From: a virus
Length of the DNA stretch: 24,356 nt
Direction: 5' to 3' (one strand)
Virus record (IMG/VR): IMGVR_UViG_3300034198_008335
Coordinates: 1 to 24,356 of that record
Shown: positions 16,261 to 22,005 of the stretch, piece after piece
Layout of the letters: each line of letters begins with the position of its first letter
How positions within the stretch are numbered: the stretch's first letter is position 1
The notes under the pieces: model-generated
Told to the model about the DNA's origin: nothing
What the model saw: the letters and a program-made list of their open reading frames with translations, nothing else
The model's database searches: none
Program-made: the position numbers and the translations under genes

Positions 16261-16866
16261 ATGGCCTTAACTGCCAAACAAGAAAAATTTGCCCAAGCCT
16301 ATCAAAGCTGCAAGAACTTCACTCAAGCTGCTTTTGATTCAGGCTTACAAAAATCAAAAGGGCGAGGTTATTACGTCTACTTCCTGATTGACCCAAGAAG
16401 CCAAGAGATATTTTATGTTGGCAAGGGGAAAGGTGGTCGAGTCTCCGACCATGTAAAGCAAGCAATCAAGGGCAATGTTTCCAATGCTGAAAAGCACAAA
16501 AGGATTACAGAGATTCTTTCTGCTGGGAAAAAGGTGCAAGAGTTTGTCTTTGAGCATTACGAGTTAGAGCGCGATGCGTTTGATTGTGAGAAGCAGCTAA
16601 TTTCAACACTCCGCTATCTCGGGCTGACTAATATTGCCAATGGGGTAATGACTAATGAGGAGAAAGTCAGCGAGGAGGCTAAGTTCTTGCTCACTCAGCT
16701 TGTGTCTGAACATTGGTTCAATAACTACGGTAAGCCAGAGATGCGGGAAGCCATAGAGGGGCATTTTGGCAGCTTCAGGGCTTACGACAACTTTGTGATG
16801 GGCGTACTTAACAAGTTGATCGTCCCATCTAAAGTAGACGCAATTAGAGAGGTTGCGTATGGCTGA
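16261..16866 (+). CDS. GIY-YIG endonuclease with TerS-like N-terminal HTH
   Basis: 201 aa from ATG 16261, chosen because MALTAKQEKFAQAYQSCKNF looks like the opening helix-turn-helix of Terminase_2-type small subunits; the frame continues upstream to 16174 through the terminator and that part is rejected. From residue 37 a GIY-YIG nuclease domain of the LEM-3/Ankle1-like kind begins: YYVYFLIDPRSQEIFYVGKG (GIY-like YVY, YIG-like YVG), catalytic Arg60 (GGRVSDH) and Glu110 (FDCEKQLI). The C-terminal part is helical. Such nucleases are often phage homing endonucleases. It appears more AT-rich than the terminase exteins. Its stop overlaps the TerS start. Confidence 0.82.
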   Translation: MALTAKQEKFAQAYQSCKNFTQAAFDSGLQKSKGRGYYVYFLIDPRSQEIFYVGKGKGGRVSDHVKQAIKGNVSNAEKHKRITEILSAGKKVQEFVFEHYELERDAFDCEKQLISTLRYLGLTNIANGVMTNEEKVSEEAKFLLTQLVSEHWFNNYGKPEMREAIEGHFGSFRAYDNFVMGVLNKLIVPSKVDAIREVAYG

Positions 16867-17152
16867 TGGCGTGAAAACAGGCGGTAGGGCGCGAGGAACG
16901 CCGAATAAGGCCACTTCTGAAGCTAGGCAGGCTATTGCCTTGTTTGTGGATGGAAACGCTCATAGGCTCTCTGGCTGGCTTGACTCCGTGGCTGCTGGTG
17001 ACGTGACAAACGACATAAAGCCAAACCCTGCAAAGGCTTTTGAGTTGTTTCAGAGTGTTGTGGAATATCACATTCCTAAACTTGCAAGGCAAGAACTGAG
17101 TGGGCCTGATGGCGGTTCAGTTCAACACAGCGTGACAGTGCGCTTTGAGTGA
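16859..17152 (+). CDS. Terminase small subunit-like protein
   Basis: 97 aa from ATG 16859 (a TTG at 16853 is possible). KTGGRARGTPNKATSEARQA is the signature opening of a phage protein family usually encoded just before TerL. GWLDSVAAG, FELFQSVVEYHIPKLARQEL and a terminal HSVTVRFE follow. It is expected to recognise the packaging site and recruit TerL. The gene overlaps the GIY-YIG stop (ATGGCTGA) and its own stop overlaps the TTG start of terL. Confidence 0.75.
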   Translation: MADGVKTGGRARGTPNKATSEARQAIALFVDGNAHRLSGWLDSVAAGDVTNDIKPNPAKAFELFQSVVEYHIPKLARQELSGPDGGSVQHSVTVRFE

Positions 17153-19499
17153 AGTTCTATTCCCCAAGGCGCTGAAGTTTCTATTCGGGCCAGCACGTTA
17201 CAAGGTGGCTAGGGGCGGTAGGGGTTCAGGCAAGTCATGGGGCTATGCCAGAGCAATCATCATCCGTTGCGTCCAGCAGCAGACTAGGGTGCTTTGCACC
17301 CGTGAGGTGCAGAAGTCCATCCAGCAGTCTGTCCACCAGCTGTTGTGTGATCAGATAGAGGCGATGCACTTTTCCGATGCGTTCACCATTTTGAACAACG
17401 AGATTCGTGGGCCGCACGGTTCACAGATATTTTTCTCTGGACTCTCAGACATCACGGCAACGGCACTGAAGTCTTTTGAGGGGGTAGACATCTGTTGGTG
17501 CGAAGAGGCGCAGGCAATCTCAGCCAAGTCTTGGAAGACTCTGATCCCGACAATCCGCAAGAACGGTTCAGAGATTTGGGTCACATACAACCCCGAGCTG
17601 GAGTCAGACCCGACTCACCAGATGTTTGTGGTCAACCCTCCACCCGACTGTGTGTCGGTTCTGATGAACTGGAGCGACAACCCCTACTTCCCCGATGTGT
17701 TGAGGGCAGAGAGAGAACACGCCGAGAAGACCATGAAAAGTGAGGAGTACCGCAACGTGTGGGAGGGTGAGTGCCTCCCAGCCGTGACGGGTGCCATCTA
17801 CTTTGATGAGGTTGCCGCAGCCGAGAGAGAGGGTCGGATCAGGAACGTCCCTAACGACATCATGCTCAAGACCCATGTGATCTGGGACTTGGGCTGGAAC
17901 GACTCGATGTCGCTCATCTTGGTGCAGAGGTCGGCATCAGAACTGAGGATCGTGGACTACATCGAGGACTCACACAGGACTCTGGCCGACTATGTGATGC
18001 AGCTCAAGCAGATGAACCTTAACTGGGGCATCCACTACCTGCCTCACGATGGCTTTGCCAAAGACTACAAGACGGGCAAGAGCGCACAAGAGATTCTTGA
18101 GGGGCTGGGTTGTGCCGTTGAGCAGACCCCGAACATGGGGATTGAAGAAGGCATCAAGGCGGCCAGAATGACCTTCAGCAGGGTCTACTTTGACAAAGAC
18201 AAGGCGGCTCGGCTTATTGAGTGCCTGAAGCGCTACCGGCGGCACATCAACAAGCAGACGCTTGAGGCTGGCTCTGCCCTGCACGATGAGTACAGCCACG
18301 GATGCTTAGACGGTGACTCGCTTATCTCTACTTCGCGTGGATTGGTTGCAATTCGTGATGTTGTCGTCGGGGATATGGTTGATACGCCAGCAGGCTACGC
18401 CCATGTTTCAGCCAGCGGCGTGACAAAGATTGCGACTGAAATAGTCGAAATGACGCTAGTGGATGGGTCTATTTTGCTGATGACCCCTGAACACAAAGTA
18501 TTCACGACGAGAGGTGTCGTTCGAGCTGATACATTGAGTTATGATGATGCCATATTCACTATTAAGTCAGCACCATGCTTGTCGTTTCAATCAATCAAAT
18601 CTGCGGGGTATCGGGACGCTCTTATCGAGAGTTTCAAGGCGAAAAATACTGGCTTTGGACTAACAGAGGCATTTACGCAAGTCAGATCGGCGGCAAGCAG
18701 CGCTTGCTTCACCTTGAAATCTATCGCGCAATTCATGGGGAGCCTCACATCAGGGCCAAGATTGAATGCGTCGATGGGAATATGTGCAACGTCACCCCGG
18801 AAAACTGGGTTATCAAGCGTTCAGTCAGAGAGCGTTTACACCCAGTTCAAGAGATTGATGGGGTTCGCTTCTATTACAAGCCAGAGGGTTACTACAAAGC
18901 TAACCACGGAAAGCATGGCGGCATCACCATGCATAGATATGTATGGGAGAGACACAACGGGCCTATCGGCGCAGGACTTCATGTCCACCATGTCGATGGC
19001 GACAAGTCCAATAATGACATATCAAACTTGGAATTACTCACAGCAAGCGATCACAGCACCCACCACGGTGAAACAAATCCGTGGGTCGGAAGTGATGCAA
19101 ACAAGCGACAACTCTCAGGCATCAACCATAAAGCCAAAGCATGGCACTCTAGTCCTGAAGGCTTGGAGTGGCATAGAAACAATGGCATCGCAGTTTGGGC
19201 GAATCGCAAAATGCACGTTAAAAACTGCACAGAATGCGGCAAGTCTTACGAAACTCATTGGCCGAACAAGTCAAAGTTCTGCCATCAGAATTGCAAAGCT
19301 AAGGCGAATAGAAGGCGCGGAAGCGACAAGACCAGTTTATGACCTGACTGTAGATCACCACCATTGCTACGTTGCCAATGGTGTTTTGGTGAGTAACTGT
19401 GATGCATTCAGGTACGCCTGTATCGTTGCTGACGCTCTGGGAAACAGCTCCGGCAGCGTCAAGCCCATCGCCTACCGCCAAAAGAGGTACATCGCCTAG
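17145..19499 (+). CDS. terL: Terminase large subunit, interrupted by an intein
   Basis: 784 aa precursor starting at TTG 17145 (8-bp overlap with TerS). N-extein: Walker A GGRGSGKSW (25-33), Walker B VDICWCEEA, coupling-motif region WVTYNP, then the RNase H-like nuclease with first Asp in VIWDLGWND. At residue 387 an intein begins (Cys387-Asn751), and the C-extein CDAFRYACIVADALG completes the last nuclease motif (normally SHxADAFRY). Spliced length 419 aa, usual for this terminase family. It powers ATP-driven DNA packaging and cuts concatemers. Splicing should be essential because the intein separates catalytic Asp753 from the rest. Confidence 0.93.
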   Translation: MSEVLFPKALKFLFGPARYKVARGGRGSGKSWGYARAIIIRCVQQQTRVLCTREVQKSIQQSVHQLLCDQIEAMHFSDAFTILNNEIRGPHGSQIFFSGLSDITATALKSFEGVDICWCEEAQAISAKSWKTLIPTIRKNGSEIWVTYNPELESDPTHQMFVVNPPPDCVSVLMNWSDNPYFPDVLRAEREHAEKTMKSEEYRNVWEGECLPAVTGAIYFDEVAAAEREGRIRNVPNDIMLKTHVIWDLGWNDSMSLILVQRSASELRIVDYIEDSHRTLADYVMQLKQMNLNWGIHYLPHDGFAKDYKTGKSAQEILEGLGCAVEQTPNMGIEEGIKAARMTFSRVYFDKDKAARLIECLKRYRRHINKQTLEAGSALHDEYSHGCLDGDSLISTSRGLVAIRDVVVGDMVDTPAGYAHVSASGVTKIATEIVEMTLVDGSILLMTPEHKVFTTRGVVRADTLSYDDAIFTIKSAPCLSFQSIKSAGYRDALIESFKAKNTGFGLTEAFTQVRSAASSACFTLKSIAQFMGSLTSGPRLNASMGICATSPRKTGLSSVQSESVYTQFKRLMGFASITSQRVTTKLTTESMAASPCIDMYGRDTTGLSAQDFMSTMSMATSPIMTYQTWNYSQQAITAPTTVKQIRGSEVMQTSDNSQASTIKPKHGTLVLKAWSGIETMASQFGRIAKCTLKTAQNAASLTKLIGRTSQSSAIRIAKLRRIEGAEATRPVYDLTVDHHHCYVANGVLVSNCDAFRYACIVADALGNSSGSVKPIAYRQKRYIA
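18303..19397 (+). mobile_element. Intein in TerL (365 aa, Hint domain)
   Basis: The Hint motifs are visible. Block A CLDGDSLISTSRG with splice nucleophile Cys1, block B LLMTPEHKVFTTRG with the TxxH pair, block F VYDLTVDHHHCYV, block G NGVLVSN followed by extein Cys+1. The penultimate residue is Ser instead of the usual His. Between the splicing halves (about residues 92-340) the frame encodes Ser/Thr/Ala-rich sequence with no recognisable endonuclease. The endonuclease is instead in another frame (18575-19342). DNA here looks more AT-rich than the flanking exteins, consistent with acquisition. Confidence 0.92.
18575..19342 (+). CDS. HNH homing-type endonuclease nested out of frame inside the TerL intein
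   Basis: 255 aa, ATG 18575 to TGA 19340-19342, in the -1 frame relative to terL. The frame is closed by TAA at 18563, so this is the first ATG. Residues 22-80 (GEKYWLWTNRGIYASQIGGK, ECVDGNMCNVTPENW) look like the DNA-binding front of phage HNH proteins. Residues 136-164 hold the HNH core HVHHVDGDKSNNDISNLELL; Cys218, Cys221, Cys236 and Cys240 form a probable zinc finger (CTECGK, FCHQNC). The ribosome site is weak (AAG only). Its end overlaps intein block F. It would cut intein-less terL alleles and drive homing; that is inference. Confidence 0.88.
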   Translation: MLVVSINQICGVSGRSYREFQGEKYWLWTNRGIYASQIGGKQRLLHLEIYRAIHGEPHIRAKIECVDGNMCNVTPENWVIKRSVRERLHPVQEIDGVRFYYKPEGYYKANHGKHGGITMHRYVWERHNGPIGAGLHVHHVDGDKSNNDISNLELLTASDHSTHHGETNPWVGSDANKRQLSGINHKAKAWHSSPEGLEWHRNNGIAVWANRKMHVKNCTECGKSYETHWPNKSKFCHQNCKAKANRRRGSDKTSL

Positions 19500-19597
19500 C
19501 CAGCCCTTAAACCAATTCTTAGGCGTCAAATGATTCGTGGCTCCTAGCTTTCGCACCCTTTACCACTTCAGACAATAGACAAAACGAGGGCGAATCT

Positions 19598-19732
19598 ATG
19601 TCACTTGAAGAACTGAAAGAGTTAATTCTTAGGGTCGGTATGGGCCGCAGAGATGCCGCTGAAGAGCTGGCTGAGCTGCTCCATTCGTTGCTGCAAAAGA
19701 CAGCCGAAAAGCCCAAAAAAGCCGTTAAATGA
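19598..19732 (+). CDS. 44-aa helical protein between terL and portal
   Basis: ATG 19598 with GAGGG upstream, stop overlapping the portal start as ATGATG. Product MSLEELKELILRVGMGRRDA ... LLQKTAEKPKKAVK is one or two charged helices with a Lys-rich tail. Function unknown; expressed with the portal by coupling. The 98 bp before it hold nothing I can identify. Confidence 0.6.
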   Translation: MSLEELKELILRVGMGRRDAAEELAELLHSLLQKTAEKPKKAVK

Positions 19733-22005
19733 TGATGGATGATGAAGACCTGTTAGAGATTCTCCAAAACAAGGAGGATGCAGCGTCTCATTACGCCCAC
19801 GGGGTGCTTGGAAGTGCGCGCGAAATCGCCGTGCGAGAGTACAACCGCATGCCCTACGGCAACGAGGTGGACGGCGAGTCGCAGATAGTCGCATCAGACG
19901 TTCAGGACAGCATTGAGTGGCTGCTTCCCTCCCTCCTGAAGACCTTCACATCCACAGACAAGGCCGTCTCTTTTGAGCCTTCTACATCCAACGACATCAA
20001 GGGCGCTGAACAGGCCACTGACGCCTGTAACTACGTCTTCTATAAGCAAAACAACGGCTTCCTGATCCTGTACACGGCGATTAAGGACATGTTGACGGTC
20101 AAGAATTGTGCCGTGATGTGGCGCAAAGAAGACATCGAGACCGTCTCATCAGTCCCCTTCAAGGGAGCATCTGAAGAGATGCTTGCGATGATGATGCAGG
20201 AGGAAGACGCCGTGATTGAGGCCGCTAACCCGGCACCCATCTTGGGTGAGCAGGGCCAGCCACAGGTCGATCCCTACACAGGCCAGCCGCTGATGGGCTA
20301 CAACGGACGACTCAAGAAGACCGAGAAGAAGTCCATCGTGAGGGTCGAGGCTTTTAGCCCCGACTCTTTGCTTGTCCAGCGTGATTGGACTTCACCTCTA
20401 CTGCACGACTGCCCTTATGTCTGTCGGATGATGCGTGTGACGCTCTCAGACCTCCACATGATGGGCTACAAGGAAGTGACCGCTGAAGATTTACGGTCAT
20501 CTGACAACATTGACTACAACGGCAGCAACCTGCACACAAGGCTGACGAATGTTCAGGATCAGTCTGCTGCCAGCGACCTGCTGATTCGTGATGAGCACTC
20601 TGATGACTCGATGGCTGAAGGCTGGCTCCGCATTGAGTACATCTTGGCAGACAAGGATGGGGACGGCATCGCTGAGAGGCTGTGTGTCTACCGCCTCAGA
20701 GACAAGATTTTGAAGTGTGAGGTAACGAGCCATGTACCCATCGCCACCTCATCACCTATTCTCAACCCGCATCGGTGGGACGGCATGTCCATCGCTGATG
20801 CGGTGTCAGACCTGCAAAAGCTCCACACCGAGCTACTGCGCCAGACGCTTAATAACCTCTACCTTACCAACAACCCAAGAACCAAAGTCCTCACAGACGC
20901 GAACTGGTCGCCACTAGCCAACATCGATGACCTGCTGGACTCTAGGGCTGGTGGGGTGATACGTCAGAGAGACGCCAACGCCATCTCTGAGCAGGTGATC
21001 CCGTTCTCAGCTGGTGCCTCCCTGCCCATGCTGGAGTATGTTCAGAACATGAGAGAGAACCGCACAGGCGTCTCTCGCACAAGTCAGGGCCTCAACCCCG
21101 ACAGCATGAACAACACCGCCACAGGCCGCGCTATGGACATGTCGGCGTCCATGCAGCGCATTGAGCTGATCGCACGGATCATCGCTGAGACGCTGGTCAA
21201 GCCGATCTTCCAAGGCATCCTGAAGACACTCACAGACGGTGGGATGGAGAAACTCGCGTTCAGGCTCAGAGATGAGTTTGTCGAGTACGACCCCAACGAG
21301 TGGCGTGATCAGTACGACATGACGATCAATGTCGGGCTCGGCACGGGCGACACGCAGCAAAAAGCGCAGCAGCTGTTGAATATTTGGCAGATGCAGATGG
21401 CCTCGATGCAGTTTGGTCTTGCCACACCTGCCCACCTCTACCACACCGCTTCCAAGCAGATTGAGAACAGCGGCTTTAAGGACGTTCAGAACTTCCTGCA
21501 AGACCCCAGAAACACCCCACCAAGGCCACAACAGCCCCCGATTGAGGTGCAGGTCGCTCAGATGAAGATTCAGGCTGACGGGCAGAAATATCAGGCAGAG
21601 ACACAGGCCGATATTCAGAAGTTTCAGGCCGAGACACAGATGCAGCGCGAGGTTGAGCAGATCAAGGCGCAGGCCAAGCTGCAAGAGATACAGGCCAGCC
21701 TTGAGCTTCAGGCCGCAAACGATGCACGGGACGCCGAAAGAGAGAGGCAAAAGGCTCTGATGGATGCCCAGCTAGAGGCTCAGAAGATTGAGTTTGAGAA
21801 GTGGAAGGCAGAGCTGACGGCTCAGACCCAAATCTACATCGAGCAGCTCAAGATGGGCAGCACCCAGACCCCGCAGCAAGAGACACCTGACCTCAACAAC
21901 GCATTGGCCGCATCTATTGACGGCTTTCGCGCTGCGTTGGATCAGATGAACAGACCCAAGACCATCATTCGCGGCCCTGACGGACGAGCCGCTGGCATCG
22001 CTTAA
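19729..22005 (+). CDS. Portal protein (P22-like, long)
   Basis: 758 aa, starting within the ATGATGATG run at 19729. N-terminal segment RMPYGNEVDGESQIVASDVQ with IEWLLPSLLKTFTSTDKAV is typical of large podovirus-type portals. The central part (WDGMSIADAVSDLQKLHTEL, RTGVSRTSQGLNPDSMNNTA) matches the stem/clip core. Residues about 604-709 are a long Gln/Glu/Lys/Ala-rich helix (QAETQADIQKFQAETQMQRE), like the C-terminal barrel of P22 portal. It forms the dodecameric DNA channel at the capsid vertex and docks the terminase encoded just upstream. Confidence 0.85.
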   Translation: MMMDDEDLLEILQNKEDAASHYAHGVLGSAREIAVREYNRMPYGNEVDGESQIVASDVQDSIEWLLPSLLKTFTSTDKAVSFEPSTSNDIKGAEQATDACNYVFYKQNNGFLILYTAIKDMLTVKNCAVMWRKEDIETVSSVPFKGASEEMLAMMMQEEDAVIEAANPAPILGEQGQPQVDPYTGQPLMGYNGRLKKTEKKSIVRVEAFSPDSLLVQRDWTSPLLHDCPYVCRMMRVTLSDLHMMGYKEVTAEDLRSSDNIDYNGSNLHTRLTNVQDQSAASDLLIRDEHSDDSMAEGWLRIEYILADKDGDGIAERLCVYRLRDKILKCEVTSHVPIATSSPILNPHRWDGMSIADAVSDLQKLHTELLRQTLNNLYLTNNPRTKVLTDANWSPLANIDDLLDSRAGGVIRQRDANAISEQVIPFSAGASLPMLEYVQNMRENRTGVSRTSQGLNPDSMNNTATGRAMDMSASMQRIELIARIIAETLVKPIFQGILKTLTDGGMEKLAFRLRDEFVEYDPNEWRDQYDMTINVGLGTGDTQQKAQQLLNIWQMQMASMQFGLATPAHLYHTASKQIENSGFKDVQNFLQDPRNTPPRPQQPPIEVQVAQMKIQADGQKYQAETQADIQKFQAETQMQREVEQIKAQAKLQEIQASLELQAANDARDAERERQKALMDAQLEAQKIEFEKWKAELTAQTQIYIEQLKMGSTQTPQQETPDLNNALAASIDGFRAALDQMNRPKTIIRGPDGRAAGIA

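Follow-up and report, generated by a model that had tools for sequence, protein, structure and literature searches.

A 24,356-nucleotide viral sequence (IMG/VR record IMGVR_UViG_3300034198_008335, positions 1 to 24,356; "the window" refers to this whole stretch) contains a terminase gene, terL, that holds an intein, and an HNH endonuclease gene lies inside this intein in another, overlapping reading frame. We conclude that the element is very probably an "entangled" mobile intein, in which one DNA segment encodes two proteins, a splicing domain in the terL frame and an HNH homing endonuclease in the -1 frame. According to this model, terL would be translated right through, with the two Hint halves of the intein joined by a nonconserved and probably unstructured linker. 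The intein would then cut itself out, restoring the terminase, and the linker would be discarded with it. Separately, ribosomes would initiate inside terL at the HNH ATG to produce a free nuclease, which would cut the intein-free terL allele at the empty site, and repair would copy in the whole 1095-bp element. Selection would keep the terL frame free of stop codons while preserving the HNH protein sequence. Splicing, internal initiation, DNA cleavage and homing are steps of this model that we infer from sequence.

A first-pass annotation of the window, made from its sequence alone, had proposed this arrangement, and its coordinates, the -1 frame of the HNH gene, the position of the HNH ATG 12 nt after an in-frame TAA at 18563 and the closure of the third frame at 18661 were all confirmed (Table 1). 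Within the intein, the HNH open reading frame (ORF) is preceded by 272 nt and followed by 55 nt, and across this ORF the third frame contains 17 stops and the terL frame none. In Pfam searches, the terL frame matched Terminase_3 and, at 54 bits, Intein_splicing, and the -1 frame matched HNH_3 at 63 bits; the HNH protein also matched PHROG HNH families. An HNH and zinc-finger protein does share its DNA with a low-complexity Ser/Thr/Ala linker, as had been described. The intein-free alleles L208 (Pseudomonas phage CF63a; HDEYSHG-SDMFRY) and L207 (HDDESHG-ADAVRY), when compared with the window (HDEYSHG/C...N/CDAFRY, the slashes marking the junctions), fix both ends of the intein, so that its bounds are exactly 18303-19397. 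The intein interrupts the terminase nuclease domain in its last conserved motif. The TerL inteins so far examined in mycobacteriophages are located in the ATPase domain (PMC5050341). The terL of another locus, L020, holds a second intein near the Walker A motif.

By its splicing residues, its Hint fold and the existence of intein-free alleles, the window intein is of class 1 type and is predicted to splice. Residues C1, T61 and H64 (block B TxxH) were invariant in the alignment, and N365, which precedes the VSN/C junction at 19397/19398, was at least 90% conserved. In the AlphaFold model of the terL-frame intein, residues 1-88 and 327-365 form the two Hint halves with confidence; the per-residue confidence (pLDDT) is 94-98 through residue 80 and 86 to residue 90 of Hint-N, and mostly 35-70 in the linker. 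The closest solved Hint structure is the gp41-1 intein (Foldseek match to 6qaz, E 2e-7; profile match, E 3.5e-19). The HNH frame was modelled confidently throughout, with a mean pLDDT of 88. Its N-terminal extension, common to the window, L007-L014 and L052, looks like a degenerate second (tandem) HNH_3 unit in the model, which would point to a duplication.

Table 1. Positions of terL, the intein and the overlapping HNH gene in the window
Feature	Position	Strand	Description and basis
terL ORF	17145-19499	+	784 aa; contiguous, open throughout
TerL N-extein, TTG start	17145-18302	+	ATPase and most of nuclease domain; Pfam Terminase_3, TIGR01547
Whole intein	18303-19397	+	1095 bp, 365 terL-frame codons, C1 to N365, followed by Cys+1
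Hint-N half (C1, block B TPEH)	18303-18566	+	Profile hidden Markov model (HMM) match, AlphaFold, dN/dS 0.15
terL-frame linker (HNH region read as terL)	18567-19319	+	Ser/Thr/Ala-rich, 37% S+T+A, not confidently folded
HNH endonuclease ORF, ATG start	18575-19342	+	255 aa; -1 frame relative to terL; fully intein-internal
HNH N-terminal extension	18575-18838	+	Alignment; AlphaFold model with repeated beta-beta-alpha pattern
HNH catalytic motif H138 H139...N147...N151...H160	18986-19054	+	Invariant in 40-43 diverse sequences
HNH-protein zinc finger CxxC...CxxxC (C218, C221, C236, C240)	19226-19294	+	Invariant
Hint-C half ending VSN	19320-19397	+	TIGR01443, 27 bits (cut-off 15.6); pLDDT 92-97
TerL C-extein starting C-DAFRY (nuclease motif), to stop codon	19398-19499	+	Alignment with intein-free TerL

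Relatives were searched in IMG/VR and in GTDB genomes with the HNH as query, and Hint-N, Hint-C and HNH profiles were placed on all frames of the loci, 163 of which were scored. Both Hint halves lay in one continuous frame, +1 relative to the HNH, in 110 of these, while another seven had the other frame offset and were still continuous. The rest comprised about 22 loci in which the host frame was closed, 21 free-standing HNH genes and a single in-frame case (L198). After removal of duplicates, there were 165 distinct loci with the window's offset; thus, the double-coded architecture is shared by at least 165 distinct virus or prophage loci and forms a widespread class. In a second scan the sole query was the Hint-C end, so that no nuclease was selected for. 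Here, 73 of 79 loci had an HNH gene out of frame within a continuous terL and none had one in frame; the remainder were two truncated loci of similar appearance, three mini-inteins and one locus that could not be placed. The taxonomic assignments of the host contigs cover many bacterial phyla as well as archaea, and the architecture was also found in the sequenced phages Highwayman (Acinetobacter), TJE1 (Tetrasphaera) and LS06-2018-MD07 (Rhodobacteraceae). The arrangement was seen in 165 distinct HNH sequences and again in the genomes of sequenced phages, which rules out a frameshift introduced by sequencing or assembly, the artefact against which the first-pass annotation had advised resequencing. 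Host genes other than terL were likewise ruled out, since 124 N-exteins matched terminase families almost exclusively in Pfam and PHROG scans.

We next consider the openness of the terL frame, which had been suspected to exceed chance and does so. Synonymous recoding of the 255 HNH codons of the window yielded a mean of 8.5 terL-frame stops, and none of 20,000 runs was stop-free; permuting the gene's own synonymous codons yielded 3.4 stops (P of none = 0.005). The predicted avoidance of stops was also seen across relatives. In the HNH core of the 110 continuous loci there were no host-frame stops, compared with 520 expected under random synonymous recoding and 215 under permutation of each gene's own synonymous codons, and the 73 loci from the Hint-C scan had none compared with 322 expected. 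In contrast, the same frame contained 6.5 stops per gene in free-standing HNH genes (6.6 expected) and 5.3 per locus in split loci (5.7 expected). The seven loci of opposite offset had no stops in their own host frame (82 expected) and 8.7 per gene in the other. Stop counts were bimodal: none in 117 loci, 1-3 in two and six or more in eight.

Homing is supported indirectly by the existence of empty alleles, by an HNH stop codon that was intein-internal in all loci measured, by joint transfer of Hint and HNH, and by a sporadic distribution. The intein and HNH travel together between distant or unrelated TerL families, as judged from sequence identities between the window and L007 of 30% for the N-extein, 64% for Hint-N and 59% for HNH. 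The HNH profile matched the homing enzyme I-HmuI (E 4e-4), which also ranked top in a fold search, though the fold match was weak (E 0.085). I-HmuI (PDB 1u3e) is borne by a group I intron and has different DNA-binding parts. A role of the HNH in DNA packaging, as for the HNH proteins beside terL in HK97-type phages, rather than in homing, appears unlikely. HNH proteins are known as packaging cofactors (cited in PMC4422536), and in isolates the free-standing relatives adjoin terL or terS: same-family HNH genes lie beside terL or terS in the intein-free phages PAE1 and FBPa53 (Pseudomonas), SN1 (Sphaerotilus), EauM-23 (Exiguobacterium), Poludnitsa (Brevundimonas), BP10 (Acinetobacter) and Shemara (Salmonella). 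However, the sporadic presence of the gene, its placement exactly inside an intein with which it moves between unrelated TerL families, the empty alleles and the match to I-HmuI all argue for homing.

The HNH gene has a start of its own, ATG, GTG or TTG, in all but two of the 110 loci, and ATG was the best candidate in 95 of the 115 loci with a candidate. Shine-Dalgarno-like sites preceded 30% of first start candidates, compared with 13% of control ATG/GTG codons (p = 3e-5). Somewhat less likely still than a packaging role is -1 programmed ribosomal frameshifting from terL, which would yield a TerL-N/Hint-N/HNH fusion instead of a separate HNH protein. The HNH gene is in the -1 frame, the common direction of bacterial frameshifting, in 110 of 117 continuous loci. 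However, in-frame slippery heptamers were found upstream of the HNH in only 14 of the 110 loci, at about twice the control density, and this rarity makes frameshifting unlikely; the near-universal starts, the enriched Shine-Dalgarno sites and the seven loci of the other offset point the same way. The -1 bias is explained more simply by free-standing HNH genes, which contain 6.5 stops in the favored frame and 20.6 in the other; the -1 offset would be preferred because HNH genes have threefold fewer stops in that frame.

The expected purifying selection on HNH was evident. In 24 independent pairs, 27/23/50% of the differences in the overlap fell at HNH codon positions 1/2/3, a pattern like that of free (30/22/48%) and split (30/21/49%) HNH genes and the same as that of Hint-N in its own frame. 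Between the window and L014, differences at terL codon positions 1/2/3 numbered 58/32/205 in the N-extein, 18/9/47 in Hint-N, 17/60/21 in the overlap and 5/3/18 in the C-extein; the substitution-rich terL position is thus the third outside the overlap, shifts to the second within it and then returns. The ratio of nonsynonymous to synonymous substitution rates (dN/dS) for this pair was 0.14 in the HNH frame, 0.15 in Hint-N and 1.53 in the terL frame of the overlap, the last value being inflated because the synonymous sites of that frame are HNH first positions. The HNH motif was kept in 107 and the zinc finger in 109 of the 110 continuous loci. Among the 73 loci found without reference to HNH, the corresponding numbers were 72 and 70, ruling out a degenerate HNH; the case of a decayed HNH beside a conserved terL frame, named beforehand as counterevidence, is essentially absent. 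The HNH frame is thus constrained by purifying selection; of the terL-frame linker it is safe to say that remaining open is the only constraint it shows. It is accordingly very unlikely that the linker is the functional part and the HNH frame no more than a relic or by-product. No locus of the continuous class has an interrupted terL frame, and some linker motifs look conserved, but such motif conservation is the expected result of reading a conserved HNH one base off, and the substitutions track HNH codon positions, the catalytic and zinc residues of HNH are invariant, and HNH is modelled confidently while the linker is not. Phage group I introns commonly carry HNH genes, yet removal of the segment by such an intron or by other RNA-level splicing, with the open terL frame irrelevant, is the least probable alternative and can be set aside, given that no Rfam match was found in 16500-20500 of the window, that the Hint halves with their splicing residues are under purifying selection and that strong stop avoidance would be needless.

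Several points weigh against the interpretation of the window element as an entangled intein. The penultimate intein residue of the window is Ser (LVSN) and the usual His is absent, while many relatives have LVHN; we consider this to be tolerated variation, since mycobacteriophage inteins maintain the penultimate His inconsistently, according to PMC5050341. The Shine-Dalgarno site at the window HNH start is weak (-0.9 kcal/mol), so that the window HNH may be poorly translated. The class "continuous" was defined by the absence of stops, which makes its zero count partly built in, and for this reason the argument from stop avoidance rests on the control classes and on the bimodality of the counts. 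Finally, the Hint HMMs were built mostly from the clade of the window, and other TerL inteins were therefore not fairly sampled.

The entangled form stands beside several others. About 20 relatives are "fractured": terL breaks off after Hint-N, HNH forms a gene of its own, and Hint-C with the end of terL follows on a further ORF that has its own start, in some cases with a clear ribosome site. These loci (L002, L005, L019, L025, L062, L077, L082, L088, L099, L133, L137, L140, L143-L145, L147, L148, L150, L152 and L160) are candidate natural split inteins, and the phage records among them (Lactobacillus phage CL2 and Vibrio phage 1.238.B) do not annotate them as such. L139 has a single host-frame stop with an ATG directly after it and is a possible intermediate, and in L134 a single frameshift appears to have broken the continuous arrangement seen in its sister L142. 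Relatives with a mini-intein or with no intein at the same site, which the first-pass annotation had proposed to look for, were both found. The mini-inteins L239, L257 and L269 have linkers of 22-56 residues and no endonuclease in any frame, and the intein-free alleles are L207 and L208. Because intein-free, mini-intein, split and free-standing forms all exist, the mobile element is made up of an intein and an endonuclease that are separable from each other, in agreement with the earlier suggestion of a composite with distinct splicing and homing proteins.

The further suggestion that a free-standing HNH gene invaded a mini-intein stands in part. The free same-family HNH genes beside terL fit a history in which such genes entered terL mini-inteins and the host frame was then either kept open or fractured, but the direction is unproven. 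The HNH and Hint trees are unrooted and poorly resolved and do not fix the order of gain and loss; the three mini-inteins fall in three places on them and could thus be losses. More broadly, the terminase inteins of this clade may constitute a large class of mobile elements in which endonuclease and splicing protein are, as a rule, separate overlapping genes, in which free, entangled and fractured states interconvert, and from which natural split inteins and new endonuclease-bearing inteins arise; we regard this generalization as evenly poised. Opposite-offset continuous loci, with HNH in the +1 frame of terL (L020, L054, L059, L061, L070 and L138), lie on different Hint lineages and probably represent independent origins of the entangled form.

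The nearest precedent is in the brucellaphages: according to its authors (PMC4422536, Virol J 2015), terL of every annotated brucellaphage contains, in another frame, a putative HNH gene encoded by an intein, an arrangement like that of the window as compared by description only. That report mentions the arrangement in passing for a single, very uniform group of phages; it gives no boundaries, frame statistics or selection tests and does not recognize a class. The ShiLan insertion (2025) resembles the window in having an HNH with zinc fingers in another frame and in leaving the host frame open. Unlike the window element, in which the HNH lies between Hint halves in a terminase gene, it has no detectable splicing domains, lies in a non-essential methylase and is thought to be retained in the protein. 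Canonical inteins with an in-frame endonuclease, such as PI-SceI, also carry the nuclease between the Hint halves, but in the same polypeptide, whereas the window nuclease is encoded by a separate overlapping gene. The cyanophage CL131 dCTP deaminase intein contains an in-frame HNH_3 (PMC6293099). The only clear terL intein with its HNH in frame is L198 (730-3675, in a metagenome-assembled genome of Acetobacteraceae), which provides a natural comparator; a scan from it yielded nine loci, six out of frame, one doubtfully in frame and two without Hint. In the fractured genes with split inteins reported by Dassa (2009; cited in PMC3229294), the endonuclease is also a separate gene between the Hint halves, but the host ORF of the window is contiguous. 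What is new here is the breadth of the class, the dual-frame selection signature and the series of free, entangled and split forms; a preprint whose title refers to a non-canonical intein architecture (10.1101/2025.01.02.630785) may describe similar cases.

Inteins are described as single chains in which a nuclease is nested within a splicing domain. A nuclease encoded by a separate overlapping gene changes how intein mobility, intein loss and gene annotation are read, and inteins labelled as lacking an endonuclease may hide one that gene callers omit. The system also provides a natural example, unusually well controlled, of a long overlap between genes on the same strand, in which the cost of double coding is measurable because the same nuclease occurs entangled, split and free. 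In addition, it offers intermediates for the entry of endonucleases into inteins and for the origin of natural split inteins, which are widely used tools.

Public annotation of the terL locus in Highwayman, TJE1 and LS06-2018-MD07 gives TerL only and leaves the HNH out. HNH genes of the family are missing from public annotation at L295 (3001-3459), L001, L003 and L004, where they lie either in the gap between terL and portal, as in Brevundimonas phage Poludnitsa, or within terL.
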